From Platanthera guangdongensis (lineage: Eukaryota > Streptophyta > Magnoliopsida > Asparagales > Orchidaceae): 64,000 nt of DNA. This document shows, piece by piece, positions 20,719-44,615 of this stretch. Below the pieces are notes generated by a model. That model was not told where the DNA came from. It made no database searches and was given only the letters and a program-made list of their open reading frames with translations. The position numbers were made by a program, and so were the translations under genes. Each line of letters starts with the position of its first letter. The first letter of the stretch is position 1. The stretch spans positions 64,028,822-64,092,821 of the forward strand of contig CM077162.1 in the NCBI GenBank assembly GCA_039583875.1. The letters run 5' to 3'.

Positions 20719-23477
20719 TGTAACGCCCCCGGTTTTTCTGTGTTTTGTTTGACCTTTGGCTGGCGTTACGATGACGTGTTTCCGGCTCTTTGTCGTAGTA
20801 CAGCGTGGTCTTAGCTCTTAGGGTTTCTTGTGTAGCCTGTTTGTAGCCTGTTAGCAAGATTCCCCAGCTAGCCGGAGTCCATTTGATGACTCGGTTGGGC
20901 CTCTTAGGGAATGCTTGTGTTTTGGCTTCGGGTGGTGATATCTCGGGTTTTGTTTGGCGAATGCTAATTTCGAATTCGCAGTTGTGTTCGTAGCATGGGT
21001 TTTTAGCTGCGATATGAATTTCGTCATTTTCCGAGATGTTTCGGGTCTCGTGTTGTTTTGATATTGGGTGTAAGTAATTAATATATATTGATTGTTTATT
21101 ATTAAACTGATGCTTATATATATAGCCTTAGGTTAGAAATTAGGGCTCAGTTCTTTGCCTCTTTTCATTTTCTCTTTCTGGAAGAAGCCGCCGCCTGTGC
21201 GAGAGGAAGAGAACCGCCGGACTACCCTAGCCTTCGGATGCCGATTCCTGGAGATTTAGTGGTCGAAATTCGATTTCGAGAGTGGATCTGGACTGCTCTC
21301 GCCTGGATCTGCATTCTTTCTGCTCCTCAGCTTGCTGCTCTGCGGCTAGATCCGAGAGTGGGGGAGGCCACCGACCAAGTTTTTCTGGTATTGAGGCAAG
21401 TGATGTTCCCTCATCCTTGCCATAGTTGATCTTTGTCTTCTTTTGTTTAAATTTTATCTCTTTCCTGCTTAAATCTTAGGTGTACGTTAAGGTTCGTTCC
21501 CGATCATACCGTGGTTAGTGTAGAAAAGTTCCCGTTAAATCTCAGATTTCCTGAGGGATTGTGTTTATTATGGACAGATTTGGTTCGGTTCAGGTCGAGT
21601 AGTTGCTATTGCCGATGGATGATGGAACTCTAGAGAGAGGCCTCGTTCTCATTTTGGTTGTTTGCTGGGTTTGGCGCCGGTGGCCAGTCGGGGTGTCGAC
21701 ACCTTTGTGTCGACATCGCCTAGCAGTGGTGTCGACACTTGGTGTCGACACCAGCAGCTGTGGTGTCGACACTTGCTATCGACACTAGCAACAGAGGTGT
21801 CGACACTTGGTGTCGACACCAGCAGCTGTAGTGTCGACACTTGGTGTCGACACCAGCAGTTGTGGTGTCGACACTTGATGTCGACACCAGCAGCAGAGGT
21901 GTCGAAACTTGGTGTTGACACCAGCAGCTGTGGTGTCGACACTTGGTGTCGACACCAGCAGCTGTGGTTTCGACACTTGGTGTCGACACCAGCAGCAGTG
22001 GTGCCGACACTTGGTGTCGACACTAGCCACAGTGGTGCCGACACCTTGTGTCGACATCGGCTTGTCGTGGTTTCGACATATCATGTTGACACTGGGTGCT
22101 GCGCTTGTTTTGGGGTCAGAAAGACTCGGGGTTGGTTCGGGTTAGGCGTGCAAGGCTGCGTCGGTTGGACCAGACGCTTTTGCCTTAGGTTCGTGTGTTT
22201 CTTAGGATTGTTAGTGTGACTTTTTCCCTATGGGGGGCATTGGGTGTTCGGCTAGTTTCTGCATGCCGACTCTTGGGTTGTGGCAGGTGGTGGAGTTTTG
22301 GTGTCCTCTGGAGGGGTGGTTTTATGTGGAGAGCTGTGGCCACCGCCTTTTGCCCCGGTTTGGGTTGGTGTGCGTGGGACCCTAAAGCTGCCACTGTTTG
22401 ACCCCTTAACCCTCTTTGGATCTGATTTTGGTTATGTATTCAGATCCATGTTTTGACCACTGCCACTTGCCCACGTGTTAGGACTGTTAGTCCCTTTCCT
22501 GCTTATGCTTTCTTTTCTTTTGGCATATATGTATATGTCTTTTTGCTGTTGCAGACTCTTTTGGTAGGGCATAATGGTTTTATTGCTCGCACTTTGTGTG
22601 CTCTGCTGTACTCTAGACAGTACTCTCTTCTTATTGTCACCCCTTTTCTTTTGCTTATAGCAGTTTGTTGCTGGGTTGGTAAACCCTTTTTCTTATTGCA
22701 CATTAATCTATTGCTCTATTTACCTTTTGATTATTTCCTTGCTGAGGTGTTCTTTTGTTGAATGCCTCAGGTCCAGGTTGTAGCTAGTTCAGCGACTAGT
22801 TCTTTTGGAGGGGCTTGTTGGTGGCCTCTTGGGTAGCTGAGATAGCTGATCCCCGTTTTGTGAGATAGTTCTTTACCTTTCTGTATAGACATACATACTC
22901 ACCAGTGGGTTCGTGTCAGGTTGTTGGCGCCCACTGGTGGCTTCTTGCAATGCTGGGTATGAACTTAAACTGCTGTTTTTGCCTATTTTATGGTTGGTTA
23001 CCTGCTTCTGGGAAGGATTTATGCTAGGTTGCATGTTAGATATTTTAAAACCTAAAAAGTATTATTATATGTACCTCATGCATAACATGTTTCTAAAACA
23101 AAGATACTATTTTTTTTCCTCAGCGTAAAACACTATCTTTCATACATACTATATTCACCTTAGAGTCGTGCATACCATGAGTCGTCCCCCGGGGACTCTT
23201 ATGCTCATTTAGGGTGTCAACATAATTGAACCAAAGTATTTTCTGCTGCGTATAAATATAATTTTAACTGCGGACTAGCTGATCCACTGTGCCGAGGGAT
23301 ACGGCCATTCAACTTAACTGATTTTCTTTCACATTTAATCAACGATTTTCCTTAAAATCTAAGGTCTGGAGTTTTGCCTGAGCGTGTGCAGTTATCCCCT
23401 GCACGACGTGGCATCACGACACGTGTTTTCTCTTGCTCTGATACGATTTTTTCGTTGAGAAAATACGGGTTGTGACA
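20719..23477 (+). repeat. Element E 5' LTR
   Basis: It is about 2.76 kb long. A TATA-like stretch lies at 21115-21124, so U3 is short (about 400 bp) and the rest is R and U5. The palindrome array at 21693-22092 is downstream of that TATA, unlike the arrays in A, B and C. The right part holds long T-rich segments. The only matching copy is the 3' LTR at 41855-44610. Confidence 0.93.
21693..22092. repeat. 34-bp tandem array of GTGTCGACAC palindromes in the E 5' LTR
   Basis: The unit is GGTGTCGACACTT, then GGTGTCGACACCAGCAGC plus three or four variable bases, 34 bp long with two palindromes each, repeated about ten times with edge variants. Several copies have decayed at the CpG (TGTTGACAC, TTTCGACAC, TGCCGACAC). 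The 10-base word is identical to the box of elements A and F, but linkers and regular spacing are not. The long VDT/CRHQ ORFs across it are by-products of the repeat. Confidence 0.9.
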
Positions 23478-23478
23478 G

Positions 23479-23492
23479 TTGGTATCAGAGGG
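23479..23492 (+). promoter_or_regulatory. Primer-binding site of E
   Basis: TTGGTATCAGAGGG follows the LTR terminus ACA by one base. It pairs with the 3' end of initiator tRNA-Met, as usual for plant chromoviruses. Confidence 0.9.
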
Positions 23493-24163
23493 AGGTTGCT
23501 TGACAAATGGATGGGCAACCTTTCCCTTGTCTGCATTAGTGGTTAGCGTCATACCATACACACACCGATATGTCATCAGCACGTCTTGGCCGAAGCGCAA
23601 ACACTACACTCATGAGCATAAAGAAGTATATAGGGCATATTATGTAGTATGAGATGCATAATATGTGTTTGTATATGGATCCACCATAAGAGGCAACATG
23701 TGAGGGTTATGTAGTATGGGATGCATAACCTCACCACATGAATGCGGCTAGCACGTTTTCTTTTTTCGTTGCATGGGAATGTTATGTAGTATGGGATGTA
23801 TAACATTTTCATGTGTACGCCGCCCATGGCATGCACTAAGGCCTTTTTAGAATGCATAGCACATCATGCATAGCATAACATTTCATAAGCACAACGTTCC
23901 AAGATAAAGATTTGCAAGATGACATATGTACACACATGGTTTTGAGTCAAAAAGAATACAAATACATGCATTCATGGTTTAGGCACCTGAGTTAGTATGA
24001 TGGCGGTGAACCATGTTAGGTTAAGCATAACATCATCATGGTAAAAATAACTCCCAGAGCAAGTTTTGCAGTTGAAGTTCATATTTAAGTGTGTTTGTCC
24101 GTACCGGGTAGTTTTGTTCTAGTTGATGGGCTAGGTTTTGTCTAAAGCTTGTGTGATTTTAGG
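23493..24163 (+). other. E untranslated leader
   Basis: This is about 670 bp between primer site and gag ATG. Apart from the hairpins at 23636-23813 it holds repeated CATAGCA/CATAACA words and no credible ORF. Confidence 0.65.
23636..23813 (+). other. Three similar hairpins in the E leader RNA
   Basis: Three inverted repeats share the apical sequence TAGTATGRGATG: 23636-23665 (stem CATATTATG/CATAATATG), about 23697-23740 (stem GTGAGG-GTTATG/CATAACCTCAC with one bulge, extended by CATG/CATG) and 23778-23807 (stem AATGTTAT/ATAACATT). The stem bases differ between copies but pairing is kept. They lie between the primer site and the gag start, where packaging or dimerisation signals are found in other retroelements. 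That role is inference. Confidence 0.7.
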
Positions 24164-24188
24164 ATGGCGAGACGTCCTGCGACGAGAT
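24164..24188 (+). pseudogene. gag: Start of element E gag (5' fragment)
   Basis: ATG 24164 opens MARRPATR and is cut by element F. The same frame continues at about 37135 with YRPPQSEGEMSGAQ. The left flank ends GAGAT and the right flank begins GATATCG, so the target duplication of F is imperfect, with probably two bases lost on the left. Confidence 0.8.
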
Positions 24189-26210
24189 TGAAAGATATTG
24201 TACATAAACACCTAGAGGGGGGGGGGTGAATAGGTGACTTGAATCTTTTTAACTTTTTAGGCAGAATTCAGAATCTAACACCGAATTATAACTACTTTAA
24301 TACATCACACATTCAGCAATCACAACATTCCACAGCACACAGTAGACACACAGTTTTATAGTGGTTCCCCAAGGTTTGGGTACATCCACTTTCCCCCTTC
24401 GCCTATCTAGCAGGGTACTAGAATCGGCCCAACTTCTCCACTATCTCAGAACCCCAAAATAGGTTCCTACAGCATAGGCCCAAGGCCCTACAACTCAGCT
24501 TCTTCACAAAGCCTACACTCAGCCACCAAGGCCTACACTCAGCCACCAAGTCCTACACTCAGCCACAACAGGCCTACACTCAGAGATATCAATCTCCTAC
24601 ACTCAGGCACTCAAGCCCTACACTCAGCCATAATAATTACAGGCTTACAACACTCAGATCCCTAAGGATCCTACAAGATAATATGAATACAAAATGTTTA
24701 CTCAACAACTCAGAGAAAAGAGAGAAGAGTTGTGAGTTTCTTGATGATTTCTTGGAAGAACTCAGCTGAAATCAATCTGACTTGGCTTTCTTCAAAGCTT
24801 CTTGAATGTAGAACTCAATAAGATTGACCTCCTCTGCAGTTGATCCTTGATCTCTGCTACTTAAGATTCAGAACAAATCTGAACCCTTCTTCTCAGCCTG
24901 GTTCTAACGGCTGACTTCTTGGATGGAGCTCTCTCAATCCAACTTCTTAGATCTTCACTAGATTCTTCAAGGAATAGCTAGATCTTCTTTGTACTACTTG
25001 ATGTGTTGATTATCAACTTGGACAACAACTTTCTGTAGACAGCATAAGCCTATTTATAGGCCTTCTCTATGGTAATTGGCTGGTCCGGTCCATAACAGAT
25101 TTCTGACAACTCTGACAGGTGCAGTAGACCGGCTGGAATGGCAGCTGTCAAGTCATCCAGTCAGTTCTTGAAAATTCTTTAACTGTCTGTAAGTGTCGAG
25201 ACTGTCTGTCTTTAAGTGTCGACACATATAGACCAAGTGTCGACACAAGTTGTCTAAGTGTCGACACTAGCCTACAAGGTGTCGACACAACTCCTCGTGT
25301 TGTAGATTTTATATCTCGACACTGCTTCTTCTTCATGTGTCGACACTGAAATTTAGTGTCAACATAAGTAATTGTACTTCAGTATATTGCTGAATTCTTG
25401 TAAGTTTCGACACATCTCCTTTGTGTCGACACATCTTCATGTGTTGAATCTGTTAAGTGTCGACACTTCTTCTTGGTGTCGACACATGTCTTCAGTGTTG
25501 ATACTTGCTGAGTGTCGACACAGCTCCTTGTGTCGACACATTCTTCTTCTGTCGAGACTCTGGCTTAGTGTCGACACAGCTCCTTAGTGTCGACACTTGT
25601 ACTTAGAATTTTGCTGATCTTTGCTAAGTGTCGACACAGCTCCTTGTGTCGACTCTTTCTTCAAGTGTTGAGTCTTCAGCTGAGTGTCGACACATTCTTT
25701 CTTGTGTCGACACTTTCTTCAAGTGTTCACTCTTCTGCTGTGTGTCGACACATTGCTCTGGGTGTCGACACTTATACTTAGTCTCTGCTGACTTTTGCTG
25801 AGTGTCGACACATCCTCCAAGTGTCGACACTTTTTGATGTAGACACAGTTTCACTGGGTGTCGACACAACTGCGAAGTGTCGACACTGCTTCACTGCACT
25901 TTACTTCATTGAGTGTCGACACAGCTCCTTGTGTCGACACTTTCTGTCTGGTGTCGACTCAGCATCCCTGATGTCGACACAATGACTCCAAGTGTCGACA
26001 CTGCTTGCCTGGGTGTCGACACAAGTCTTCTTAAGTGTCGACACTTTCCCTCTGGGTGTCGACACATAGACTTAGAAACTTTTCCATCTTTCCTGCAAAT
26101 ACTTAACCTGCACAAGTGAACTCAAAACACATCAAATACATTTTGATGTATATCATTGAGTTGTGTGAGGCTTCTTCAAATCAGGTACATTTAAACCAAT
26201 GTACCCAACA
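24189..26210 (-). repeat. Element F 3' LTR
   Basis: It is about 2.02 kb long, the reverse of the A LTR. The G-run (10 G, 24217-24226) corresponds to the poly-C tract, the TATA box is at 25050-25059, and the GTGTCGACAC array lies at about 25193-26066. Repeats of about 20 bp (CCTACACTCAGCCACCAAGG) lie at about 24525-24620. Confidence 0.93.
25193..26066. promoter_or_regulatory. GTGTCGACAC box array in the F 3' LTR
   Basis: There are roughly 30 boxes, upstream of the minus-strand TATA box at 25050-25059. Box positions largely match those of the A LTR, while individual boxes have decayed at different places (GTGTCAACAT, GTTTCGACAC, GTGTTGATAC). Confidence 0.88.
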
Positions 26211-26211
26211 A

Positions 26212-26226
26212 TCTCCCCCTATTTGG
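26212..26226 (-). promoter_or_regulatory. Polypurine tract of F
   Basis: On the minus strand this reads CCAAATAGGGGGAGA, next to the 3' LTR border at 26210, identical to the tract of A. Confidence 0.9.
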
Positions 26227-26484
26227 AGAAGTCATAACCCTTAGTCAATGATATACACCATACAGAATAAAATCAAGTATGATGTAAAACAGGATTATGT
26301 AATCAGGAAAGAACATCACATGTATTAAACAAACATGCATATACAGATAACATCTCAGAACAATTATGAAATAGATTTAAAACACATCATATTGTTCTCA
26401 CAACTTTGTAATATTCATAATACAAAGGTTTTACATAGTGTTAACATCAAAAGATTACATAGTAAACTTAATAAAATTTCTATG
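26227..26484 (-). other. F 3' untranslated region
   Basis: This AT-rich segment is the reverse counterpart of the A 3' untranslated region. No ORF or box array was seen. Confidence 0.6.
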
Positions 26485-29305
26485 CTATTTTTGTTCAGCC
26501 TCCTTAATCACGATCCCTTTTCCAGACTGAATCTGGCTTGAACAGGAGCTTCAGCAACTTCAGCATCAGCTGGCTTCTTGCCTTTCAGATCCTTTTTCTT
26601 TAGCTCTTCTGCTTTAATCTTTTGCCTTTCAAAATAATGATAAGGCTTGGGAAAGTACTTGCTAGGCTCCTGGGCAGTAGGAGGTAGCTTTCCCATCTTG
26701 GCCTTTCTTCTATATTGGACTATTGCTTCTTGCCTAGTCTCATGTTTCCTCCATTCAAGTTCAGAAAACCACTTGTTTCTATCCTGTATATTATCTTTTG
26801 CAGCTTTCCATGCAATTAAGATAATGTTCCTTGAAGTGGGGCTCCACTGCTCAAAGTCTGGTCTCTGTTCAGCTTGCTCCCTAAACCTCTTTTTAGAGAA
26901 TCTGGTTTCTTCTTCTTTCTACAGAGCTTCTTGCATAGCTTCAGATATTGGCTGAACAACTTTCTCTATAATGACATTGTCCTTTCCCCCAGGTGGGCTA
27001 TACATGCACTGTATATCAGCATGTATCATGTCAAAATCTGGAGGAGGGTAGATGACTTGAGCCACTTCAGGTTGCTCCCCTCCTAGATATGCAGGATTAA
27101 TTCCAGATTCTGCCACATTATCATCATCACAAAGAGGAGGATATCCAAGAGTAGCTCTGATAGAATTATAAATCCATTTAGCATGATCAGAGCTGGCTTT
27201 GACTAACACTCTCTCCCCCTTTATGACTTCTCTTTCTATGTGATCTCTTACATCATCTTTTTGAAATCTAACCTGGTTATCCAAATAATTGACTCCATCT
27301 TTAAAATAAGGCTTTAACCTTTGGAGTTTGTCAGTAATGATCTTCTGAGAGTCTAGTATGGCAGTCTTAACAGCAGTTATTTCCTCTTGGAAGGCTTTGT
27401 CAAATTCTGCTTTTGCTGTAGCATGAGCTGGAGTCTGCCCTGCAGCTAGATTCTTCATCTCTATGACTATGGCATTATGAGAAGCAGTCAAGTTATCATT
27501 CATCCTAATTTGATTTTCAAGTACATAGCCTTGCTTGACTGCAAGTTCATCAACTTGAGCTTTTATCTTCTCCTGATGTGTAGCCAAGTACACCACTGCA
27601 TTTCCTCCCTTGTGGAAGCAGTCTGTCATCTCCTTCTTATTAAGATTCATTTCAAATCTTATAGACTTTATATCCTGGGCCAAATCAAACTGCAATGATT
27701 TCTGCCCTTCATCCACATACTTCTCAATGGTCTGGCTGTGCTCATCAAGCTTAATTTGCATTGCAACCATTAGAGCACTAAAATCAACAGTAGGTGCTGG
27801 CTGTGATATAGGCTGTGGTGCAATAGTTTGTAATGCCTTCTTATAACTCTGGCTCCTTCTTCTGAATACTTGAAATTTCTTTTTCTTTGCCCTTGTAGCC
27901 TCCTCATCTTCAGAAGCTGAGGTGCTAGCTATGTCTACCCTCTCCTTAGGTAGCTCCTCAACAGCTGTTTGTTTCTCAGGCTCTTGCCTTGGAGGTTCTT
28001 CAAGAATTACCACTTGCTCCCCCTCAACTGGAGCATTCTCCCCCTCAGCAGCAGTTTCTTTGTCAAAATCAGTTTGATCCAGATTAAGAAATAAATCTTC
28101 CATTGTAATTTCTTGTGGAGAATGGGCAGGAGAAATTCTTTGCTCATCTACCACTGGATCAGATACAATTTGAACTTCAACAGATGTGTCTTCCATGACA
28201 ACATCTGGGAGTTGGCTATCCAGCTGAGTTTGCTGATGAACATTAACTAATGGATCAGATAAAACAGTATCCAATTTAAGGAAATCTAAAGCATTAAGCT
28301 CAGTGATTACCTCTAAGATGATGTTGGTTGCTAGCTCACTCTCAAGAGGAGTTGGCTCTTCCACTACTAGTGGCTCCCCCTGGACTTAATCCTGGTGTAA
28401 GGGGCTAGCTTGAGGTAGCTCCCCCCGCCTCTCAGCAACTTCTTGTTGAGCTGTAGACTTCTCAGCAATTCCTTCTTCATTCTCATCAGGTGAGAAAACA
28501 ACTTGCTCTTCACTACCAGAGCTGCTAGTTGACTCTTGAGCCACTGGGGCAATTTTCTTCTTCTTCTTGTGTGGGGTTTCTTTCTCAGGAGTAGGCATCT
28601 CCTTTGTCAAAACTCTGTCCCATCTTGAGAAGATTCTCATGTCCATTCTTCTCATGTGGTTGATTTCACTGCCAACAGCTTGTCTCATAACTTATGGTAT
28701 AATACCAGCAAGGTATAAACTTAAGATCCTGCCCAAGTTAGGCTTTTTAGGCTTTCCTTAATCTTCTCAAAGATCACTACAGACCAGTCAGTGTTCAGGC
28801 TGAAGATTATCCTTGTCATAATGTTGAACATATGGGCTGATACCCTATCATGCCCTCCTGGCTTACTTAGGATCACTTTGCCTACAATTTCAGAGTGTAA
28901 TTTCCCCTGACTGTTCATGCCCTTCCTATTAAACACTGATCCAATTTTCATCTTAGAATCCAGACCACACCATGTCAACGCATCTCTGGTCCTGGAAGCA
29001 GTAACCTCTTCTTCTTCCTTAGTTCTTGGCAACTGAAGGATTTTCCTCAAACTTTTTCGTGAAACCTTAACCTTCTCACCATGGACCCTGGACTTGATCT
29101 TGAATCCAGATTCGTCTACATTAGCTCCATTGAGGAATTCCAAGACTTCCTTCTTCCAGATCTTTGTAGGCTCTGAAACATGAAATTCCAACCCCGAGTC
29201 TGCAACTAGGGTTATCACATTCTTGATTTCTGGGTCTGCATCACCAAACGCGTCGCGCACCAGTTCATACCCTTCATTGACGTTCTCCTCGAGCTTTGGC
29301 GCCAT
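26485..29305 (-). pseudogene. Element F 3' extra ORF (envelope position)
   Basis: The start is ATG 29305 (MAPKLEENV) and the end TAG at 26487-26485, the same extent as in A. The longest open block is 28364-26919 (about 480 residues: acidic middle and helical part), which bridges the place where A has its stop at 11266. The globular N-terminal part (29305-28721) is open and then shifts frame near 28730; a stop lies just before 28367 and another near 26920. It has no membrane segment or signal peptide. A and F together show that the family once had one long ORF of about 930 codons. Confidence 0.75.
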
Positions 29306-29339
29306 TAGGGTTTGAAGAATTTGAACTGAGAGAAGAGAG

Positions 29340-29784
29340 GTGTCGACACACAAGTTTGGTCTCGAAACTTTTGAAAGCGTGTCGACAGACTAAGGCAAAA
29401 TCCTATTAAACCTTTCTAGGTTTGAAGATGAAAAGGCGGGCAGCTAACTTAAATTGTGTCGACACTGTCGATAAGTGTCGACACTGACTTATAATGTCAC
29501 GACACTTATGTGTCGACACAAGTTTAGTCAACAGATTTTATGTGTCGACACTTGTTTATGTGTCGACACCACAGAACTCGACATTTAGTCGAGACTTTAC
29601 TGAGATAATTCTGAGTAAAGCCTAAGTGTCGACACCACCTTGGATGTGTCGACACCTACTTACCATGTGTCGACACCAATTTTCTGAAGTGTCGACACCA
29701 ACTTCCTAGATGTGTCGACACCTTTTCACTGAAGTGTCGACACCTTTATTCTGTGTCGACACAGAGATCTCTGTGTGTCGACAC
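29340..29784. promoter_or_regulatory. Internal GTGTCGACAC array before the F 3' ORF
   Basis: About 14 boxes are collinear with 9411-9861 of A. The A TATA box (TATAAATAG) is here changed to TTTAATAG (minus strand of about 29404-29411), so this copy has probably lost its internal TATA. Confidence 0.8.
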
Positions 29785-29834
29785 CTTTTGACTTAGCCAT
29801 TTTTATAAACTTATTCTAAGTTTATCATTCCTAG

Positions 29835-32800
29835 TTAAATTTTAAACCTATTGAACTTAGTTTCTTCTAAGGTCTTAGTATACATATCAGCTAGTTGATT
29901 ATCTGTTTTAACATATTCTAGTAAAATATCTTCTTTCTCTACATGCTCCCTAAGAAAATGATATTTTATTTCAATATGTTTAGTTCTACTATGAGAAACA
30001 GGACTATGTGCAATTGATATAGCACTTGTAGAATCACAAAAGAGTGGAGTTCTACTTACTTGAATTCCATAGTCCTCAAGCTGATGTTGTATCAATAGAA
30101 GTTGAGCACAGCAACTTCCTGCAGCCACATATTCTCACTCTGCAGTGGAGATAGCCACACTTGTTTGCTTTTTGCTACTCCAAGAAATCAGTCTTCCACC
30201 TAGGAATTGACAGGTTCCAGTTGTGCTTTTTCTGTCTTCTTTGCATCCTGCAAAGTCTGCATTTGAATAACCTGTTAGTTCAAAATCCCCATTCCTAGGG
30301 TACCAGAGGCCTAGATAAGGAGTGCCCTTTAGATATCTCAATATTATTTTGACTGCTGTCAAATGAGACTCTTTAGGGCAGGCTTGATACCTTGCACAGA
30401 CACATATATCATACATGATATCTGGTCTACTTGCAGTCAAATATAATAGGGAGCCAACTATCCCTCTATACAAAGACTCATCTACAGGCTTCCCTGCATC
30501 ATCCTTGCTAAGAGACATACTTGACCCCATAGGAGTCTTCATGGTACTGGAAGAATCCATACCATACTTCCTTATGAGTTCTAGGGTGAACTTAGACTGG
30601 CATATAGATAAACCATTCTCAGTCTGTCTTACTTGGAGACCCAAGAAGAACTTAAGTTCTCCCATACTACTCATCTCAAATTGTCCTTGCATTAGTTTTG
30701 CAAACTTTTTGCAAAGACAACTTTCAGTAGACCCAAATATTATGTCATCTACATATATTTGGACTAGTATAACTTTGCCTCTGGATTCCCTAAGGAATAG
30801 AGTCTTGTCTATTTTCCCCCTTGTGAACTTATTCTCAATGAGGAAACTAGACAGGGTTTCATACCAAGCCCTAGGGGCTTGCTTTAACCCATATAATGCT
30901 TTCCTAAGTCTATAGACATGATTAGGTAGAGTTGAATCAACAAAACCGGATGGCTGTTCCACATAGACTTCCTCTTTAAGATTACCATTCAAAAATGCTG
31001 ACTTGACATACATTTGGTAAACTTTAAATCCATGAAAGGTTGCATAGGCCAGGAACATCCTTATGGCTTCCAGTCTGTCTACTGGAGCAAAGGTTTGATC
31101 AAAATCAATACCTTCTTCCTGCCTATATCCTTTAGCAACCAATCTTGCTTTGTTCTTAATGATGACTCCATGTTCATCTATCTTGTTCCTATAGATCCAC
31201 TTGGTCCCAATTATGTTGTGGTCTTTAGGTTTAGGAACAAGCTCCCAGACCTTGCACCTCTTGAATTGATTCAGCTCTTCTTGCATTGCCTCAATCCAAT
31301 GAGGGTCTAGGATGGCTTCTTCAAACTTCTTTGGTTCAACTTGGGATAGAAAAATGGAGTAGATTGCTGCATTCAGATTTCTGCTCCTTGTTTGTACCCC
31401 TTGTCTTGGATCACCAATGATTTGTTCTGCTGGATGATCTCTAAGATGCCTATTGGCTGGAGGCATCCTGACTTCTGGTTGAACTTCTTCAGTTTCTTCA
31501 TCTTGCTGTACTCCTTGTACTTCTTCTGCATTAGGTACATGTAGTACTCCCCCTGGACAGCAGCCACTATCTTCTACTTGCTGTCTTGTAGAAGGTTCTT
31601 CTTCTATAGTGAGCTTGTCCATCTTCTTTGTTATACCTGAGGAGCTGTATACACTACTAGACAACTCATTGTTAATAAGTCTAGTTTCATCAAATACTAC
31701 ATGTACAGATTCCTCTACAACTTGAGTAGACAAGTTGTAGACTCTATAAGCCTTACTATTGTTGCTGTACCTAACAAAAATTCCCTCTTGGGACTTGGCA
31801 GCAAACTTAGTCAAGTAAGACTTTCCATTGTTAAGTATAAAACACCTACAACCAAAGATCCTGAAATAGGATAGGTTTGGTTTTCTGCCTTTCACAACCT
31901 CATAGGGGGACTTGTTGTGGCTTTTAGTTATGGTAGCCCTATTAATAACATGGCATGCAGTATTAACTGCTTCAGCCCAGAAATATTCTGGTAGTGATGT
32001 ATCACTTAATAGGGTCCTACCAGCCTCAATCAAGGTTCTATTCTTCCTTTCAGCAATGCCATTTTGCTGAGGTGTTCTTGGTGAAGAAAACTCTTGAAAT
32101 ATCCCAAATTCTTCACATAGTTTTGTCATGCTATCAGACTGAAATTCAGTACCATGGTCACTTCTTATTTTGACCATTGTACTATTTAGTTCATTCTGAA
32201 TTTGTCTAACAAAGCTATAGAAGACACTGGGTGTTTCAGATTTCTGTCTAAGAAAGAACACCCAGGAAAACCTTGAGTAGTCATCTACAACTACAAAGGT
32301 ATAGACCTTCCTACCTAGGCTGTGAACTGGCATTGGACCAAAGATATCCTTATGCAAGAGGTATAAGCACCTCACAGCATCTTTGCTTTCAATGCTTCTA
32401 AAGGTGGATCTAGTCTGCTTGCCCGTTTGACAAGCTGAGCAAATACCATCTTTAATACACTTAACTTGAGGACCATTCCTCACTAACTCTTTGCTAAAGA
32501 GTTTACCAATTGTCTTGTAGTTTAGATGAGCTAGCCTCTTGTGTCATTTGACACAATGAGAGACTGTCTCATCAGCTACTAGACACACTGGAGAACCATT
32601 GTTCTCAACCATAATGTCTAAGCAGTAGACATTTCTTTTTCTATAACTAGTCAAAATGATCTCTTGATCATTTGACCTCCTGATATGACAACCATCTTTC
32701 ACAAATGAGATTTCATATCCACATCACTCAATTGACTTATACTAATAAGGTTATGTTTCAAACCTTTAACATAGGCCACTTGAGTAATTGTAATAAAGGA

Positions 32801-32983
32801 GTTAGATATGTTACAAAAACCCTTGATGATTCCTTTTTCAGAACCACCAAAGGTGACTTTTGGACCATCCTTGATGGGTGTGTAGTCCTTTAGTAAACTC
32901 CTTGTTCCAGTCATATGTCTGGAACATCCACTGTCCAAGTACCATATTGGGGCATGGCCACTTGGACTCACCTGCAAAACAGA
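29835..32983 (-). pseudogene. pol: Element F pol
   Basis: Protease (WYLDSGCSRHMTG), integrase, reverse transcriptase (YVDDIIFG) and RNase H occur in copia order. The block 32483-30135 is open for about 780 residues and covers most of integrase through RNase H. Frameshifts lie near 32700 (protease to integrase) and about 32485, a TGA stop occurs just after the RNase H STAE motif (about 30132), and an early stop at 29835 removes the last residues. The [11 protein letters not shown] integrase motif is intact, unlike that of A. Confidence 0.9.
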
Positions 32984-35024
32984 TTAGTGAACCTTAGAAC
33001 CCAAAGAATTCTTGGGTCCTTGGTACTGGTTAGTTTGCTTCCTAACAAAGCTACCTGCAGGCTTTCCAACAGGCAGTTTGATACTCACTTTGGCACTAGC
33101 ATTGTGCCAACAGTCCATTGCAAAGTGGCCTACCTTGCCACAACACCAACACTCAAACTTATTGTACCTTTGCTTAAGTACTGTCTTTGCTGTTTTATCT
33201 ACAGCTGACTTGTTGAGAGTTGGGGCTTTGCCCTTGGACTTGGACTTAGACTGAACAGTCCTAGCAGGTTTTGAAAACCCCAGTCCAGCTTTACCTTTTT
33301 GATGAACAAATTCATCAATTATGGGTAGAACAGTATTTGGTTTAGAAAACCTAGCAACTAAGTCTTTCTCCTTCTGAAGATTAATCTCCAGACTCTTGAT
33401 TTGATCATTCTTAAATGATATAGCCCATCTGAATCACAGTTATGTGCTTCAGTCTGGCTATCTCATTAAGCTTTTGATCAAACAACTTCTCAAAATTAGT
33501 TGTAGCAGCTTTGAGATTAGCAATTTCCTTTGCCTGACTTTTGGCTAGGGGCTTGCTCTTCTTATAAGCTTGCAACAGAACTTTATATTCATCTATCAAC
33601 TGATGAATATCCTCTTCAGACTCAGATGCACTCTCATCACTTGATGATGATGAATCTGATTCTGTACTGGCACAAGAAATTGAAATAAAAGAACAATGTT
33701 GTACCTTACTAGGTCCTGGCTGCTCCAGGATTTTGTCACTTTCTGTCAATGTCATTAGTCCTTGGCACTGACTGTCTTCTTGTTCATATATAAAGTTCAT
33801 GATCTGAATGAACTCTTCTTCTTCTTCCTCAACAAACAGTCCTATATATGCCTCAGCATCTGACTCAGTTTCTGATGAAGAAATATCTGACAGGCTCTTG
33901 TCCTTTTTGGCAACAAAAGATTTTTCCTTCTTGCCCTTGTATTGAGTCCTTTTCTTGTCACTAGACTCCTTCCTTTTTTCTGGACAATCTGCAATAACAT
34001 GGCCTTGTCTATTACAACAATAGTATACTATTTTTGAAAGAGTTGCTTTGCTAGACTTAATCTTTTTCCTGTCTTTCTTTGAAGACTTTTTATTCTGATA
34101 ATAGTCTTCTTTTCCCTGTGAAGTAGATGGCCTTGTTCTCCACTGTTTCTTCTTTAAGAACTTCTGGAAATGTCTTGTGAAGGCAGCAAAGTCCTCATCA
34201 CTTTCACTGCTTTCAGACTTTCTACTTGCTGACTCATCAGACTCAGTTTCAGGTACTTTTGGTGGTGGAGTTGGTGACTTACTTCTGTACTTTCTGGGGG
34301 CTTCTGTTTTGAAGGCCACTATCCTTTCTTTATGTTCACTTCTTGTTGATTTTTCCTCTTCTTTCCTCACCATTAACTGCATTTCATAGGACAGCAGTTT
34401 GCCAAACAGTGTTGGTGGAGGAATTTCTGCCAACTTTGTCATTTCCCTAATGGCACAGATCTTGGTGTCCCAATCTTTTGTTAGGGACCTTAGAAACTTA
34501 TCATTGAGTTCATAATTACTGAACTCTCTGCCATAGGACATGAGCTCATTCACAATCTTGTAGAACTTCTTATAGCATTCAGTTATGCTATCAGCTTTAC
34601 CTTGTCTAAAACTTTCATATTCTTGGTTTAGCAAGGATTTTCTGTCTTGCCTTACTTCTTCAGAACCCTCCATGTACACAATAAGAGTATCCCACATCTC
34701 TTTAGCTGTCTTACAGTATATCAAATTCTGAAAAGTTGCATCATCTATAACACTCACAATGATGTTCTGAGCCCTTTTGTCCATAGTGGCTAGAATAATT
34801 TCATCCTTTGTCATTTCTGAGAAATCATTAGCTGTTCTCTGATTTGAATCTAAGACTGACACCTTCATTGGCACATATGGCCCTTCTTTCACTGTGATAT
34901 AAATCCTAGGGTCTGAGGCTTCCATAAACAGTCTCACCCTTTCCTTCCATATACCAAAGATCTCTTTTCTACATATGGGTAACTTCATGGATCCCAATTC
35001 CTTGTGATTCTCAGTGGAACCCAT
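32984..35024 (-). pseudogene. gag: Element F gag
   Basis: It is open from ATG 35024 (MGSTENHKELG) for 537 codons to a frameshift near 33411, where two bases present in A are missing. The first zinc knuckle is present. The second knuckle (CX2CX4HX4C) is encoded after the shift, around 33130. The terminal TAA (32986-32984) is at the same place as in A. Confidence 0.88.
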
Positions 35025-35115
35025 GGTTCTTGATTTTCTTGATTCTGTAACTGACTTAGACTGAATCTGCCAACAAAATCTACTCAGATAGTTATGTCCC
35101 TTTTTGAGGAACCTG

Positions 35116-35127
35116 GCTCTGATACCA
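35116..35127 (-). promoter_or_regulatory. Primer-binding site of F
   Basis: On the minus strand this reads TGGTATCAGAGC, two bases inside the LTR terminus at 35130. Confidence 0.93.
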
Positions 35128-35129
35128 CT

Positions 35130-37132
35130 TGAAAGATATTGTACCTAAACACCTAGAGGGGGGGGGGGTGAATAGGTGACTTGAATCTTTTTAACTTTTT
35201 AGGCAGAATTCAGAATCTAACACAGAATTATAACTACTTTAATACAGCACACATTTAGCAATCACAGCATTTCATAACACACAGTAGACACACAGTTTTA
35301 TAGTGGTTCCCCAAGGTTTGGGTACATCCACTTTCCCCCTTCGCCTACCTAGCAGTGTACTAGATTCAGCCCAACTTCTCCACTATCTCAGAACCCCAAA
35401 ATAGGTTCCTACAGCTCAGGCCCAAGGCCCTACAACTCAGCTTCTTCACAAAGCCTACACTCAGCCACCAAGGCCTACACTCAGCCACAACATGCCTACA
35501 CTTAGAGATTTCAATCTCCTATACTCAGGCACTCAAGCCCTACACTCAGCCTTTATAATTACAGGCTTACAACACTCAGATCCCTAAGGATCCTACAAGA
35601 TAATATGAATACAAAATGTTTACTCAACAACTCAGAGAAAAGAGAGAAGAGTTGTGAGTTTCTTGATGAGTTCTTTGAAGAACTCAGCTGAAATCAATCT
35701 GACTTGGCTTTCTTCAAAGCTTCTTGAATGTAGAACTCAATAAGATTGACCTCCTCTGCAGTTGATCCTTGATCTCTGCTACTTAAGATTCAGAACAAAT
35801 CTGAACCCTTATTCTCAGCCTGGTTCCAATGGCTGACTTCTTGGATGAAGCTCTCTCTCTCCAACTTCTTAGATCTTCACTAGATTCTTCAAGGAATAAC
35901 TAGATCTTCTTTGTACTACTTGATGTGTTGATTATCAACTTGGACAACAACTTTCTGTAGACAGCATAAGCCTATTTATAGGCCTTCTTCATGGTAACCG
36001 GTTGGTCCGGTCCATAACAGATTTCTGACAACTCTGACAGGTGCAGTAGACTGGCTGGAATGGTAGCTGTCAAGTCATCCAGTCAGTTCTTGAAAATTCT
36101 GTAACTGTCTGTAAGTGTCGAGACTGTCTATCTTTAAGTGTCGACACATATAGACCAAGTGTCGACACAAGTTGTCTAAGTGTCGACACTAGCCTACAAG
36201 GTGTCGACACAACTCCTTGTGTTGTAGATTTTATATCTCGACACTGCTTCTTCTTCATGTGTCGACACTGAAATTTAGTGTCGACACAAGTACTTGTATT
36301 TCAGTATATTGCTGAATTCTTGTAAGTGTCAACACATCTCCTTTGTGTCGACATATCTTCATGTGTTGAATCTGTTAAGTGTCGACACTTCTTCTTGGTG
36401 TCGACACATGTCTTCAGTGTTGATACTTGCTGAGTGTCGACACAGCTCCTTGTGTCGACACATTCTTCTTCTGTCGAGACTCTGGCTGAGTGTCGACACA
36501 ACTCCTTAGTGTCAACACTTGTACTTAGAATTTTGCTGATCTTTGCTAAGTGTCGACACAGCTCCTTGTGTCGACTCTTTCTTTAAGTGTTGAGTCTTCA
36601 GCTGAGTGTCGACACATTCTTTCTTGTGTCGACACTTTCTTCAAGTGTTGACTCTTCTGCTGTGTGTCGACACATTGCTCTGGGTGTCGACACTTATACT
36701 TAGTCTCTGCTGACTTTTGCTGAGTGTCGACACAGCCTCCAAGTGTCGACACTTTTTGATGTAGACACAGTTTCACTGGGTGTCGACACAACTGCTAAGT
36801 GTCGACACTGCTTCACTACACTTTACTTCATTGAGTGTCGACACAGCTCCTTGTGTTGACACTTTCTGTCTGGTGTCGACTCAGCATCCCTGGTGTCGAC
36901 ACAATGACTCCAAGTGTCGACACTGCTTGCCTGGGTGTCGACACAAGTCTTCTTAAGTGTCGACACTTTCCCTATGGGTGTCGACACATGGACTTAGAAA
37001 CTTTTCCATCTTTCCTGCAAATACTTAACCTGCACAAGTGAACTCAAAACACATCAAATACATTTTGATGTATATCATTGAGTAGGGTGAGGCTTCTTCA
37101 AATCAGGTACATTTAAACCAATGTACCCAACA
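35130..37132 (-). repeat. Element F 5' LTR
   Basis: It is about 2.0 kb long, the partner of 24189-26210, with 11 G in the poly-C position, TATA box 35972-35981 and GTGTCGACAC array about 36114-36987. It ends at TGTTGGG (minus) against the resumed E gag. Confidence 0.93.
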
Positions 37133-38340: not shown

Positions 38341-41300
38341 TTAGCGCTTGTTCCTTAGATGCATGTGCAATTCGTAGGACGATTTAAGGTAAAGGACCGC
38401 TGGGCGCGCGTTCTCTTCGATTCCGGTGCTACCCACTCGTTTGTGGCTAGAGCCTTCATGGAGCGGTTTAGTTTGGGTCTAGATCATGTGGGTGGTGCCT
38501 TCTGCATTAAGTTCCCCTCTGGTGACTCTATGTTTACGGACCTGGGTGTCCTCAATTGTCTGATTTTGTTGGGAGATTTTCTAGCCAAGGCAGATCTGAA
38601 GGTGATTGACCTGGGGGACTTCGATGTTATTTTGGGCATGGACTGGTTGTCAAGGTATGATGCTGTGATCCAGTGCAAGGGTAAGCGCTTGGACTTCGTC
38701 GAAGACAACGGTCAGCCAGGGAGCGTTTATGGGTATTCCCTCTAGGAGTCTCTAGTCATTTCTGCGGTGCGTGCTCGGAAGTTGCTTGATTCTGGTTGTT
38801 TTGCCTGTGTGGTCTCTCTGGTAGGGACGATTGTTAGTGTGCCCCTCTTGGAAGAGATTCCTGTGGTGTGTGACTTCTCTGATGTGTTTCCTGACGATCT
38901 TCCCGGTCTTCCACCCGATCGAGATGTCGAGTTTGCCATAGATTTGGAGCCAGGCACGCGTCCTATTGTAAAGGCGCCGTATCGGATGGCCCCGCGAGAG
39001 CTGGAAGAGTTGCGAATTCAGCTGGATAAGTTATTGGCAAAAGGCTTTATAAGGCCGAGTGCTTTGCCTTGGGGTGCCCCAGTGCTGTTCGTTAAAAAGA
39101 AGGATGGGTCGATGAGGTTGTGCATCGACTATAGAGAGCTGAACAAGGTTACTATTAAGAACAGGTACCCTTTGCGGCGAATCGACGATTTGTTTGACCA
39201 ACTCCGTGTTAGTGCCGTGTTTTCCAAGATAGATCTTCGTTCGGGCTATCACCAGTTGAGGATTCGGGAGTCAGATGTTCCGCGGACGGCGTTCCGCTCT
39301 CGTCATGGGCATTTTGAGTTTTTGGTTATGTCATTTGGTTTGACTAATGCGCCCTCGGATTTTATGGATTTGATGAACAGCGTTTTCAAGGATTTTCTAG
39401 ATAAGTTTGTGATTGTCTTTATAGACGATGTTTTGTTGTATTCTAAAGATGCGGAGGAGCATGATCGACATTTGCGACAGGTCTTGGCGACTCTGAGAGA
39501 CCATATGCTATACGCCAAGCTGAGCAAATGTGAATTTTGGTTGCCTCAAGTTTCTTTTCTAGGCCACGTGATTAATAAGGAGGGAATATCGGTGGACCCA
39601 GAAAAGATTGTTGCTGTTATGGAATGGGCGAGACCTGTTACTCCCAAATAGATCAGAAGCTTCTTGTGTCTGGCTGGTTATTATAGAAGATTTGTAGAAG
39701 GCTTCTCTACCTTGTCCGCGTCGTTGACCAAGTTGACGCAAAAGAATGTAGCCTTTATATGGGATGGTGAGTGTGAGAAGGCTTTTGAGAAACTAAAAAG
39801 AAGGCTATGTTCGGCTCTAATTTTGTCTTTGCCTACGGAGGGTAGTGAGTATGATATATATGTGGATGCATCGCATGTCGGACTGGGCTGCGTTTTGATG
39901 CAGGGCAGGAAGGTGATTGCATATGGGTCGAGGCAGCTAAAGTCTCACGAGAGGAATACCCTACGCATGACCTGGAGTTTGCAGCTGTGATCTATGCGCT
40001 AAAATTGTGGAGGCATTTGCTATATGGCGCGTAGTGAAAGATTTTCACGGATCATAAGAGTTTGAAGTATGTCTTCACTCAGAAAGAATTGAATCTGCGC
40101 CAGTGGCGGTGGTTGGAGTACGTGGCCGACTATGATGTTGAAATTCAGTATCATCCGGGCAAGGCAAATGTGGTGGCCGATGCCCTAAGTTGGAAGTCAA
40201 GTAAGATTTTTAATCTTTCCGCCGAGCGTCTAGTGGAAGAGTTTCTTTTGATGGACATTTCTGTGGGAAGCTGTGATTCGCAGAGTAGCTTGGCAGTGGC
40301 AGAACCTTCGTGGATTGCGCTTACGAGACTGCATTAGAAGGACGATCCTGATCTTCTGCATTTGTGTCTTCGAGCTGAAAAAGGTGAATTACCAGATTTC
40401 TCTATAGATAATGCAGGTACCTTGAAGTATCGTGGCAGGTTTTGCATCCCCGCGGTTGGAGATATCCGGGATTTGGTGTGCAGAGGAGCCCACGTATCTA
40501 GTGTCGCCTACCATCCAGGGTCGACCAAGATGTATCATGATTTAAAACAGATTGCCTGGTGGTACGAGATGAAGAAGGACATAGCCAGATTTGTTTCAGA
40601 GTGTTTCACTTGCAGGCGTGTGAAAGCCGACCATGGGAGGCCTGGTGGCAAGCTGACTCCCTTGGAGATTCCGATGTGGAAGTGGGAGAGTATCTCGATG
40701 GATTTCATTACCGGCTTACCGAGATCTCCTAAGGTGCATGATTCAGTCTGGGTAATCGTAGACTGATTGACGAAGAGCACTCATTTCGTACCATTTAAGA
40801 TCGATTATCCGATGAGGAAGATAGCCGAGCTGTATCTGGAAGAGGTTGTCAGATTGCATGGTGTACTCGTAAGTATCATATCAGATCGAGACTCCAGGTT
40901 CACGTCTCATTTTTGGAAGAGCCTTCAAGAGGGGTTGGGTAAAGATTTGAGATATTCCACGGCTTATCATCCGCAGACCAATGGTCAGACGGAGCGAGTA
41001 AATCAGATTGTGGAAGATATGATCCGATGTTATATTCTAGACCACGGAGGAGCGTGGGACGAGCGCTTGCGGCTTATGGAATTCGCATATAACAATAGTT
41101 ATCAAGAAAGCCTGCAAATGGCTCCTTTTGAAGCTTTGTATGGGAGGCGCTGCAGGACTCCCTTGTTTTGGGCTGAGCTTGGCGAGGGACCTTTGTTGGG
41201 TCCAGAAGCGCTCGAGGAGATGGAAACCGCTGTGAAGCTTATTCGGGAAAAGCTTCTGATAGCCCAGGAGAGATATGAGAAGAACGCCAATCGGCGTAGA

Positions 41301-41734
41301 TCGGACTTGGAATTTGATGTGGGGGACTCGATGTTCTTAAAGGTCTCCCCGTTATTGGAGTCAAGCAGTTTGGCAAGAGTAGGAAGTTGGACCCGAGGTA
41401 CGTAGGGCCGTTTCCGATCGTTGAGCGGATTGGGGTATCAGCCTACAGGCTGGCTTTGCCCGCAAATTTCCCTGGCGTGCATGATGTCTTTCACGTCAGT
41501 CAGCTGCGGAAATGTGTGGTAAATGGCAGGCAGGTGTTGGATTTTGTGCCTCAGTTGGAGCCAAATCTTTCTTATGTGGAGGTGCCTGTTCGCATTTTGG
41601 ATTCTCAAGTTCAGGCATTGCGGAAGAAGACTATTCCTATGGTTAAAGTTTTATGGAGGAATCAGGATGTGGAAAGCGCGACTTGGGAGTTGGAGTCGGC
41701 TATGATGGAGGCTCACCCTCATCTGTTTCCCTGA
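38341..41734 (+). pseudogene. pol: Element E pol: protease, RT, RNase H, integrase, chromodomain
   Basis: Protease has LFDSGATHSF (Asp at 38419). Reverse transcriptase has FIDDVLLYS (Asp at 39424). RNase H has YVDASHVGLG. Integrase has an HHCC part ending CFTC, SMDF, SDRDSRF and TERVNQ. A C-terminal chromodomain-like segment follows (about 41575-41734, with VKVLWRNQ...ATWELE). In-frame stops occur at about 38356, 38743, 39649, 40335 and 40764 (TGA where VDRLTK is usual, a CGA-to-TGA change). Frameshifts lie near 39957 in RNase H and near 41370 before the chromodomain. The chromodomain would guide insertion toward particular chromatin marks. Confidence 0.9.
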
Positions 41735-41839
41735 TCTTGTGCCTGGTATGCTCTGTTTTATTATATAGCCATTTCCTGGCTCTTTCTCTCTCCTTCTTTA
41801 TAGGAGTGTTGTGAGTAAAGTTTCGAGGCGAAACTTTCT

Positions 41840-41852
41840 TTTAGGGGGAGTG
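41840..41852 (+). promoter_or_regulatory. Polypurine tract of E
   Basis: TTTAGGGGGAGTG lies just before the 3' LTR start at 41855. Confidence 0.85.
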
Positions 41853-41854
41853 GC

Positions 41855-44610
41855 TGTAATGCCCCCGGTTTTTCTGTGTTTTGTTTGACCTTTGGCTGGC
41901 GTTACGATGACGTGTTTCCGGCTCTTTGCCATTGTAGAGCGTGGCCTTAGCTCTTAGGGTTCCCTGTGTAGCCTGTTTGTAGCCTGTTAGCAAGATTCCC
42001 CAGCTAGCCGGAGTCCGTTTGATGACTCGGTTGGGCCTCTTAGGGAATGCTTGTGTTTTGGCTTCGGGTGGTGATATCCCGGGTTTTGTTCGGTGAATGC
42101 TAATTTCGACTTCGCAGTTGTGTTTGTAGCGTGGGTTTATAGCTGCGATATGAATTTTGTCATTTTTCGAGATGTTTCGGGTCTCGTGTTGTTTTGATAT
42201 TGCGTGTAAGTAATTAATATGTATTGATTGTTTATTATTAAACTGATGCTTATATATATAGCCTTAGGTTAGAAATTAGGGCTCAGTTCTTTGCCTCTTT
42301 TCATTTTCTCTTTCTGGAAGAAGCCGCCGCCTGTGCGAGAGGAAGAGAACCGCCGGACTACCCTAGCCTTCGGACGCCGATTCCTGGAGATTTATTGGTC
42401 GAAATTCGATTTCGAGAGTGGATCTGGACTGCTCTCGCCTGGATCTGCATTCTATCTGCTCCTCAGCTTGCTGCTCTGCGGCTAGATCCGAGAGTGGGGG
42501 AGGCCGCCGACCAAGTTTTTCTGGTATTGAGGCAAGTGATGTTCCCTCATCCTTGCCATAGTTGATCTTTGTCTTCTTTTGTTTAAATTTTATCTCTTTC
42601 CTGCTTAAATCTTAGGTGTACGTTAGGGTTCGTTCCCGATCATACCGTGGTTAGTGTAGAAAAGTTCCCGTTAAATCTCAGATTTCCTGAGGGATTGTGT
42701 TTATTAGGGACAGATTTGGTTCGGTTCAGGTCGAGTAGTTGCTATTGCCGATGGATTATGGAACTCTAGAGAGAGGCCTCGTTCTCGTTTTGGTTGTTTG
42801 CTGGGTTTGGCGCCGGTGGCCAGTCGGGGTGTCGACACCTTTGTGTCGACACCGGCCAGCAGTGGTGTCGACACTTGGTGTCGACACCAGCAGCTGTGGT
42901 GTCGACACTTACTATCGACACCAGCAGCAGAGGTGTCGACACTTGGTGTCGACACCAGCATCTGTGGTGTCGACACTTGGTGTCGACACCAGCAGCAGAG
43001 GTGTCGACACTTGGTGTCGACACCAGCAGCTGTGGTGTCGACACTTGGTGTCGACACCAGCAGCAGAGGTGTCGACACTTGGTGTCGACACCAGCAGCTG
43101 TGGTGTCGACACTTGGTGTCCACACCAGCAGCTGTGGTGTCGACACTTGGTGTCGACACCAGCCGCAGTGGTGCCGACACCTTGTGTCGACACCGGCTTG
43201 TCGTGTTGTCGACATATCGTGTCGACACTGGGTGTTGCGCTTGTTTTGGTGTCAGAAAGACTCGGGGTTTGTTCGGGTTAGGCGTGCAAGGCCGCGTCGG
43301 TTGGACCCGACGTTTTTGCCTTGGGTTCGTGTGTTTCTTAGGATTGTTAGTGTGACTTTTTCCCTAGGGTGGGCATTGGGTGTTCGGCTAGTTTCTACAT
43401 GCCGACTCTTGGGTTGTGGTAGGTGGTGGAGTTTTGGTGGCCTCTGGAGGGGTGGTTTTATGTGGAGAGCTGTGCCACCGCCTTTTGCCCCAGTTTGGGT
43501 TGGTGTGTGTGGGACCCTAAAGCTGCCACTATTTGACCCCTTAGCCCTCTTTGGATCTGATTTTGGTTATGTATTCAGATCCATGTTTTGACCACTGCCA
43601 CTTGGCCACGTGTTAGGACTGTTAGTCCCTTTCCTGCTTATGCTTTCTTTTCTTTTGGCATATATGTATATGCTTTTGCTGTTGCAGACTCTTTTGGTAG
43701 GGCATAATGGTTTTATTGCTCGCACTTGGTGTGCTCTGCTGTGCTCTAGACAGTACTCTCTTCTTACTGTCACCCCTTTTCTTTTGCTTATAGCAGTTTG
43801 TTGCCGGGTTGGTAAACCCTTCTTCTTATTGCTCATTAATCTATTGCTCTATTTACCTTTTGATTATTTCCTTGCTGAGGTGTTCTTTTCTTGAATGCCT
43901 CAGGTCCAGGTTGTAGCCAGTTCAGCGGCTAGTTCTTTTGGAGGGGCTTGTTGGTGGCCTCTTGGATAGCTGAGATAGCTGATCCCCGTTTTGTGAGGTA
44001 GTTCTTTACCTTTTTGTATAGACATGCATACTCACCAGTGAGTTCGTGTCAGGTTGTTGGCGCCCACTGGTGGCTTCTTGCGATGCTGGGTATGAACTTA
44101 AACTGCTGTTTTTGCCTATTTTATGGTTGGTTACCTGCTTGTGGGAAGGATTTATGCTAGGTTGCATGTTAGATATTTTAAAACCTAAAAAGTATTATTA
44201 TATGTACCTCATGCATAACATGTTTCTAAAACAAAGACACTATTTTTTTTCCTCAGCGTAAAACACTATCTTTCATACATACTATATTCACCTTAGAGTC
44301 GTGCATACCATGAGTCATCCCCCGGGGACTCTTATGCTCATTTAGGGTGTCAACTTAATTGAACCAAAGTATTTTCTGCTGCGTATAAATATAATTTTAA
44401 CTGTGGACTAGCTGATCCACCGTGCCGAGGGATACGGCCATTCAACTTAACTGATTTTCTTTCACATTTAATCAACGATTTTCCTTAAAATCTAAGGTCT
44501 GGAGTTTTGCCTGAGAGTTTGCAGTTATCCCCTGCACGATGTGGCATCACGGCACGTGTTTTCTCTTGCTCTGATACGATTTCTTCGTTGAGAAAATGCG
44601 GGTTGTGACA
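41855..44610 (+). repeat. Element E 3' LTR
   Basis: It is about 2.76 kb long and collinear with the 5' LTR. It has a TATA-like stretch at 42251-42260 and the 34-bp palindrome array at 42829-43228. The array is cleaner here than in the 5' LTR, with fewer CpG losses. The terminus TTGTGACA is followed by ATTAC. Confidence 0.93.
42829..43228. repeat. 34-bp tandem array of GTGTCGACAC palindromes in the E 3' LTR
   Basis: It has the same organisation as 21693-22092: about 20 palindromes, most perfect. Clean unit starts at 42966 and 43000 give the 34-bp period. Between the LTRs the third spacer alternates AGCAGCTGT and AGCAGCAGA in a similar but not identical order. Confidence 0.9.
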
Positions 44611-44615
44611 ATTAC

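Follow-up and report, generated by a model that had tools for sequence, protein, structure and literature searches.

Two described systems come closest to the locus analysed here, namely the VANDAL elements, which are DNA transposons, and the Sireviruses, which belong to the copia retrotransposons. In Arabidopsis, VANDAL elements encode VANC proteins that bind short motifs amassed as tandem repeats in the non-coding DNA of the very elements that encode them; the words vary by family and their density matters (PMC5735166, PMC10398659). For Sireviruses, repeated-motif boxes were reported in 2010 as a high-copy CpG-rich palindrome in the upper long terminal repeat (LTR), upstream of the TATA box, with a second cluster before env; the account compares copia elements, terms the motif Sirevirus-specific and found no single factor whose binding site is common to them (PMC2829016). 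Here we describe a 64-kb window of the orchid Platanthera guangdongensis (the whole stretch analysed, contig CM077162.1, positions 64,028,822 to 64,092,821; coordinates below are those of the window), in which one 10-bp palindrome, GTGTCGACAC, fills arrays in two Sireviruses, A and F, and also in a gypsy chromovirus, E. Comparison of A with F indicates that the exact word was under selection while these elements were active.

To the reading that we prefer we assign a probability of roughly 55%: GTGTCGACAC would be the site of a symmetric protein, the arrays of A and F would be regulatory, and E would have an array of its own, probably for the same factor. That is, the word would be a 10-bp site with symmetric protein contacts, its binder most probably being a transcription factor of the host that acts as a dimer, and the dense arrays of A and F would serve as upstream regulatory sequence, one in the LTR promoter and one before the env-like open reading frame (ORF). 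The separately built array of E, with its different 34-bp unit, would probably answer the same factor from afar; its first site may have been captured as a short seed or have arisen by mutation before it was amplified as a 34-bp tandem unit. We infer from the sequence that a protein would bind the word and activate, that it would be host-encoded and that the array of E would work.

The window is made up of nested plant-type LTR retrotransposons, among them the three elements in question:

1993-15055, plus strand: element A, a copia retrotransposon (Sirevirus) that includes an env-like region; LTRs at 1993-4051 and 13008-15055, target-site duplication AACCT
20719-44610, plus strand: element E, a Ty3/gypsy chromovirus with F inside; LTRs ~20719-23477 and 41855-44610, target-site duplication ATTAC
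24189-37132, minus strand: element F, of the same kind as A and inserted within E; LTRs at 24189-26210 and 35130-37132, target-site duplication GAGAT/GATAT

Exact copies of GTGTCGACAC number 166 in the window, as compared to 0 in 100 dinucleotide shuffles, and all of them belong to the three elements, 66 to A, 67 to F and 33 to E. Outside these elements the window holds 0 sites with 0 or 1 mismatch to the word and 5 sites with exactly 2. The 166 copies fall into eight arrays, with A and F each having one in either LTR and one before env, and E having one in either LTR:

2138-2984, plus strand: word array in the 5' LTR of A, 27 exact copies
9412-9858, plus strand: array upstream of the env-like ORF of A, 14 exact words
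13174-13999, plus strand: word array in the 3' LTR of A, 25 exact copies
21693-22092, plus strand: word array in the 5' LTR of E, 24 slots of which 13 are exact, spacing 13/21
25216-26065, minus strand: word array in the 3' (left) LTR of F, 27 exact copies
29340-29784, minus strand: array upstream of the env-like ORF of F, 14 exact words
36138-36987, minus strand: word array in the 5' (right) LTR of F, 26 exact copies
42829-43228, plus strand: word array in the 3' LTR of E, 24 slots of which 20 are exact

An earlier note on this DNA had claimed that A, F and E share an exact 10-base palindrome and that A and E belong to different superfamilies, and both claims are borne out, E being gypsy and A copia by domain profiles. 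It had also counted about 20 words in each LTR of E, which agrees with the exact copies in the 3' LTR and overstates those in the 5' LTR, and the two intervals that it took for the LTRs of E are the arrays within them.

The evidence for selection comes from comparing the LTRs of A and F, in which changes that separate the LTR pair of a single insertion were counted as post-insertion, whereas differences common to both A LTRs versus both F LTRs were counted as fixed, i.e. as having mostly arisen during element activity; gapped columns were left out (0 in words, 3 in linkers, 64 in the rest). The words carry a single fixed change in 310 columns along with 18 post-insertion changes, as compared to 40/537 fixed and 22 post-insertion changes in the linkers and 74/1151 and 64, respectively, in the remaining LTR columns (fixed versus post-insertion, words against linkers, Fisher p = 3.3e-6). 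Widening the set to words with up to 2 mismatches gives 3/370 fixed changes versus 38/477 in linkers (p = 1.9e-5), and up to 3 mismatches 4/390 versus 37/457 (p = 3.3e-5). Simulations of neutral words under the same ascertainment, with 20,000 runs in each of three settings, gave mean counts of fixed changes between 15 and 18 and a minimum of 4. The footprint is that of the word itself: each of its ten letters has 0-1 fixed changes in 31, while the adjoining bases have 3/31 directly before and 2/31 directly after, the six positions before the word 1 to 5 each, and the six after it 0 to 5. With the word mask shifted by 5-12 bp, 13-29 fixed changes are counted instead of 1. In the arrays before env, which are single copies so that fixed and post-insertion changes are pooled, A and F differ at 0/140 word, 20/305 linker and 5/50 flank positions. 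Decay of CpG was found at 9/90 CpG in words versus 30/119 elsewhere (p = 0.007; other changes, 1 in words and 6 elsewhere, left out), a comparison that is biased by CpG gains from TpG/CpA in the set of 119 and that we do not count as evidence.

The differences between A and F indicate that the exact 10-mer in these elements was under selection during element activity, at two separate arrays, and not after insertion; the purifying selection is deduced from one family pair. An exact 10-bp palindrome kept by selection between freely changing linkers is the expected signature of a symmetric protein site. The description of the palindrome as a binding word for a host factor, put forward in the earlier note, is thus backed in its first part for A and F by the fixed-versus-post-insertion test, as predicted binding, and the host origin of the factor would be a further, conjectural step. 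Another way of reading the palindromes is as RNA or DNA structure, with hairpins feeding or evading small-RNA silencing instead of a protein site. Predicted folding of the array transcripts is much stronger than that of shuffled sequences (z = -20.4 for E and -14.6 for A), and a small-RNA excess over palindromic Sirevirus regions in maize is cited in PMC10760457, regions that, as described there, likewise form LTR clusters with strong predicted folding. However, strong folding follows automatically from self-complementary words and is therefore uninformative, and pairing alone would suffice for hairpins, yet conservation extends to the precise letters over a 10-bp footprint, and E has these letters too. 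We consider a purely structural role highly improbable. The maize system has small-RNA data, and sharing across superfamilies is not mentioned in the citing account (PMC10760457), whereas the present window is known from its sequence.

Where the arrays of A and F lie relative to promoters and genes can be read from the following features:

3141-3150, plus strand: TATA box CTATAAATAG in the 5' LTR of A, 156 bp past the last word; the same in the A 3' LTR at 14156
9786-9794, plus strand: TATA box TATAAATAG of A, 45 bp past the last word of the cluster, upstream of ORF3; changed in F
9893-10828, plus strand: ORF3 of A, 312 amino acids; weak match to PF20167, 29.6 bits, under the cut-off of 45
11269-12714, plus strand: ORF4 of A, 482 amino acids between stop codons; no Pfam family reaching its cut-off

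One further word of the internal array of A stands at 9849, beyond TATAAATAG, and the ATG at 9893 opens ORF3. The claim that repeated-motif boxes are a Sirevirus trait fits A and F, whose layout matches that of the env-bearing Sireviruses treated in PMC2829016 in both position and copy number; the CGG-CCG core of those boxes is missing from GTGTCGACAC, as it is from the Tnd-1 word tabulated there. The best reading of the arrays of A and F, judged by sequence and position, is therefore that they are Sirevirus repeated-motif boxes, a known kind of feature. E resembles the boxes in having a high-copy palindrome in its LTRs and departs from them in that the carrier is gypsy, the array lies ~1.16 kb from a TATA motif and there is no cluster before env.

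ORF3 and ORF4 are probably coding because differences between A and F are in excess at third positions: 57/186 (0.31) versus 9/186 (0.05) at first positions in ORF3, and 128/466 (0.28) versus 32/467 (0.07) in ORF4. The excess is weaker in the tail of ORF3, with 23/113 (0.20) third-position differences versus 8/113 (0.07) and 16/113 (0.14). Along A 9893-12667 and F 26534-29305, third-position differences amount to 0.31 in ORF3, 0.20 in its tail and 0.28 in ORF4; the values for pol and gag are 0.08 and 0.13. By this measure the env region of A and F appears to be older or exchanged, though the words of the array before it are unchanged.

This layout also bears on where the factor would be encoded. 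The binder could be a Sirevirus protein, the product of ORF3 or ORF4, expressed from an internal promoter that the array drives and acting like VANC as an activator or anti-silencer, with E tapping in through the site. A conserved second array directly before ORF3, the TATA box of A, the coding appearance of both ORFs, the precedent of VANC proteins binding short motifs repeated in their own elements (PMC5735166) and the retention of CpG in the array of the A 5' LTR (observed/expected 0.85 versus 0.18 downstream) favour it. A factor encoded by A and F fits the same data as a host factor. On the other hand, no DNA-binding domain was found in ORF3 or ORF4 in a Pfam search, and repeated motifs are also listed for four Sireviruses that lack env (PMC2829016 Table 3). 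A PDB sequence search with ORF3 gave no match, and its single-sequence AlphaFold model is unusable (mean pLDDT, the model's own confidence score, 38.5). We regard a Sirevirus-encoded binder as unlikely. Slightly more doubtful still is a version of it in which an env-region product from the array-driven promoter binds GTGTCGACAC as part of a private activation or anti-silencing system of the copia Sirevirus, and the gypsy chromovirus, having acquired and amplified the site, is switched on in trans. As compared to the VANC system, where the factor, a motif-binding protein that removes methylation, is element-encoded and demonstrated, two superfamilies share the word in our window and the binder is putative; the word here is a palindrome, a property that the description of VANC motifs in PMC5735166 does not mention.

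The array of E is built differently. Its unit is 34 bp long and includes CCAGCAGC, and slots follow one another at alternating distances of 13 and 21 bp (14 and 22 bp at the array edges), in agreement with the 34-bp unit described in the earlier note; the unit is repeated in tandem in 10.7 and 11.7 copies that are 87-88% matching. In 21 of the 24 slots no mismatch is common to both LTRs, and these slots were probably exact at the time of E insertion. The internal parts of E are free of GTGTCGACAC words. With exact words masked, blastn of the E LTR against A/F sequence reaches only chance level, with a best E-value of 0.48, and the linkers differ, which upholds the statement in the earlier note that the array is no simple copy of an A/F LTR; an origin by copying or conversion from such an LTR is not supported. 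An origin through insertion of F was rejected, as both LTRs of E bear the array at matching positions while F lies in the internal region. The base preceding exact words in E is G in 12/13 (5' LTR) and 17/20 (3' LTR), and the following base is C or T in 33/33, whereas in A the preceding base is T or A in 27/27 in the 5' LTR and G in 6/14 in the array before env. Since the masked match is at chance level and flanking bases differ, the unit common to E and A/F is essentially the selected 10-mer.

The array of E might nevertheless be a passenger, that is, one captured or chance site multiplied as slippage amplified the 34 bp around it, without being used by E and with A and F alone using the word. 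The tandem repetition at 87-88% identity is what such an origin would leave, most words of E derive from two per unit, unit types are placed differently in the two LTRs, and the array is far from a TATA motif. Against it, edge units hold the word with 2/60 mismatches amid unlike linkers (14 edits in 31 bases), in a test that is partly circular given that slots were found by likeness to the word, and at the time of E insertion words were less variable than linkers throughout the array (4/240 mismatches to the word versus 11/160 mismatches of linkers to the consensus of their own length class, p = 0.013), two of the linker classes holding just one or two members. We take a passenger array to be possible, if clearly the less favoured option, and function of the array in E to be likely on the grounds of these repeat-unit patterns.

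Besides the circular edge test and the thin linker classes, further points weigh against the preferred reading of a shared factor that also serves E. Differences between the two LTRs of E are more frequent in linkers (19/190) than in words (10/210) and flanks (28/974 and 45/1381). The linker types CTGTG and CAGAG occur at different units in the two LTRs, which suggests exchange among E units since insertion, and slippage or conversion without selection could have produced the linker pattern. The core words of the array lie in the 34-bp tandem unit and hence are not independent events, and there is one E copy only, so that the evidence for selection in E is variation among repeat units. The position relative to TATA is a further concern, as is the alteration in F of the TATA box before ORF3:

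44384-44390, plus strand: TATAAAT at position 2530 of the E 3' LTR, ~1.16 kb past the last word slot

This TATAAAT is the only one in both E LTRs and lies ~1.16 kb beyond the array, whereas the arrays of A end 156 and 45 bp before their TATA boxes; a TATATAT occurs at E LTR position 397, upstream of the array. The contrast in CpG content seen in A is likewise absent from the 3' LTR of E (observed/expected 0.83 in the array, 0.96 upstream and 0.52 downstream). Regarding helical phasing, R for a 10.5-bp period ranges over 0.22-0.46 among the five arrays of A and F that were analysed and is 0.73 in the array of the E 3' LTR, the latter being a consequence of the fixed 13/21 spacing.

A last point concerns how many words there are to choose from. 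Only 1024 10-bp palindromes are possible, and 64 with a TCGA core; this core is common to GTGTCGACAC and TTCTCGAGAA, the word of another LTR fragment in the window, and is also found in the Vitis and Tnd-1 words (PMC2829016 Table 3). The effective choice of words may thus be small. The recurrence of the core among words gives some weight to coincidence, by which E and A/F would have arrived independently at the same palindrome with no common binder. It requires a match of 1/64 to 1/1024 and also an array in a class of elements in which, from a search at title and abstract level, such boxes were not found described, and we rate it as very unlikely. Words vary by family, and therefore the identity between A/F and E is notable.

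The fragment bearing TTCTCGAGAA (15057-16525, minus strand) is part of another LTR, with 8 exact copies of this word and 23 of CTCGAGAA, both strands together. It ends in the A-type C-rich signal, CACCTATTCACC...CTCTAGGTG, and looks like a Sirevirus because this end signal is the same as in the A LTR; its primer-binding site (PBS) ends TATCAGAGG, the same as in E and one base from the Sirevirus PBS, so that the junction alone does not classify it. A further, imperfect palindrome array around CACGACCAGTGGTCGTG, with a period of ~95 bp and a different sequence context, lies at 60165-60505.

Outside plants, pattern scans for pairs of GTGTCGACAC no more than 30 bp apart returned 3 viral and 39 prokaryote stretches, of which 8/42 records exceed 2 words per kb. 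The densest three are bacterial contigs: L015, with 14 exact words mostly 21 bp apart, L009, with 9 at irregular distances, and L035, with 8 mostly 37 bp apart. Searching the open-licence literature for the GTGTCGACAC string gave no plant-retrotransposon paper by title among the matches listed, and a search of that literature, judged by titles and the first lines of abstracts, found no report of arrays shared between copia and gypsy elements or of chromovirus palindromes. The presence of the word in E, a gypsy element unrelated to A and F, is new in this sense, and the evidence for selection on the exact word in A and F is new as well.

The assignment of the elements rests on several features. 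A and F are each ~13 kb long with LTRs of ~2 kb and are 90% alike. Retrotran_gag_2 (copia gag) was found in both, and RVT_2 in A, where alone it was tested; in A the copia gag profile (PF14223) scores 65.5 bits and the copia reverse transcriptase profile (PF07727) 249.6 bits. The PBS region of A and F reads TTTCA/AGTGG/TATCAGAGC, matching the Sirevirus PBS, which is TATCAGAGC behind CA and the 5-base spacer ATTGG, or AGTGG in six elements (PMC2829016). As is typical of Sireviruses, the polypurine tract AGGGGGAG of A at 12998 is followed by AT/TG of the 3' LTR, and a C-rich integrase signal stands close to the LTR end in both A LTRs and in the F 5' LTR. Extra copies of AGGGGGAG, which Sireviruses carry after env, lie in A at 10817, 11165 and 11981 as well as at 7636 within pol.

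In E, whose LTRs are 2.76 kb long, pieces searched apart matched, in order, RVP_2, RVT_1, RNase H, integrase H2C2, SH3_Tf2-1 and Chromo; the integrase core piece gave no profile match above cut-off. The order protease, reverse transcriptase, RNase H, integrase and C-terminal chromodomain identifies E, by its predicted domains, as a Ty3/gypsy chromovirus, with a marginal Chromo score (25.2 bits versus a cut-off of 25.1). Its lineage may be Tekay/Del. An NCBIfam profile search with four pieces gave no match above cut-off, and scanning viral contigs for kin of the E reverse transcriptase piece gave 4 pattern stretches, 0 of them confirmed. LTR-pair differences outside the arrays (22/1151 positions in A, 42/1151 in F, 73/2355 in E) indicate insertions of similar age. 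Elsewhere in the window, ~20 copies of a 108-bp tandem repeat (44615-46852) adjoin the 3' end of E within the element that E entered, and a 239-bp stretch is duplicated in tandem at 464-942, 99% alike.

Taken together, the comparison of A and F provides direct evidence of selection on the exact 10-mer during element activity, at two arrays. Given that the 10-mer also occurs in a gypsy element, its binder would not be private to Sireviruses, or would be exploitable by others. In either case, the binder should be identifiable and co-activation across families would become testable.

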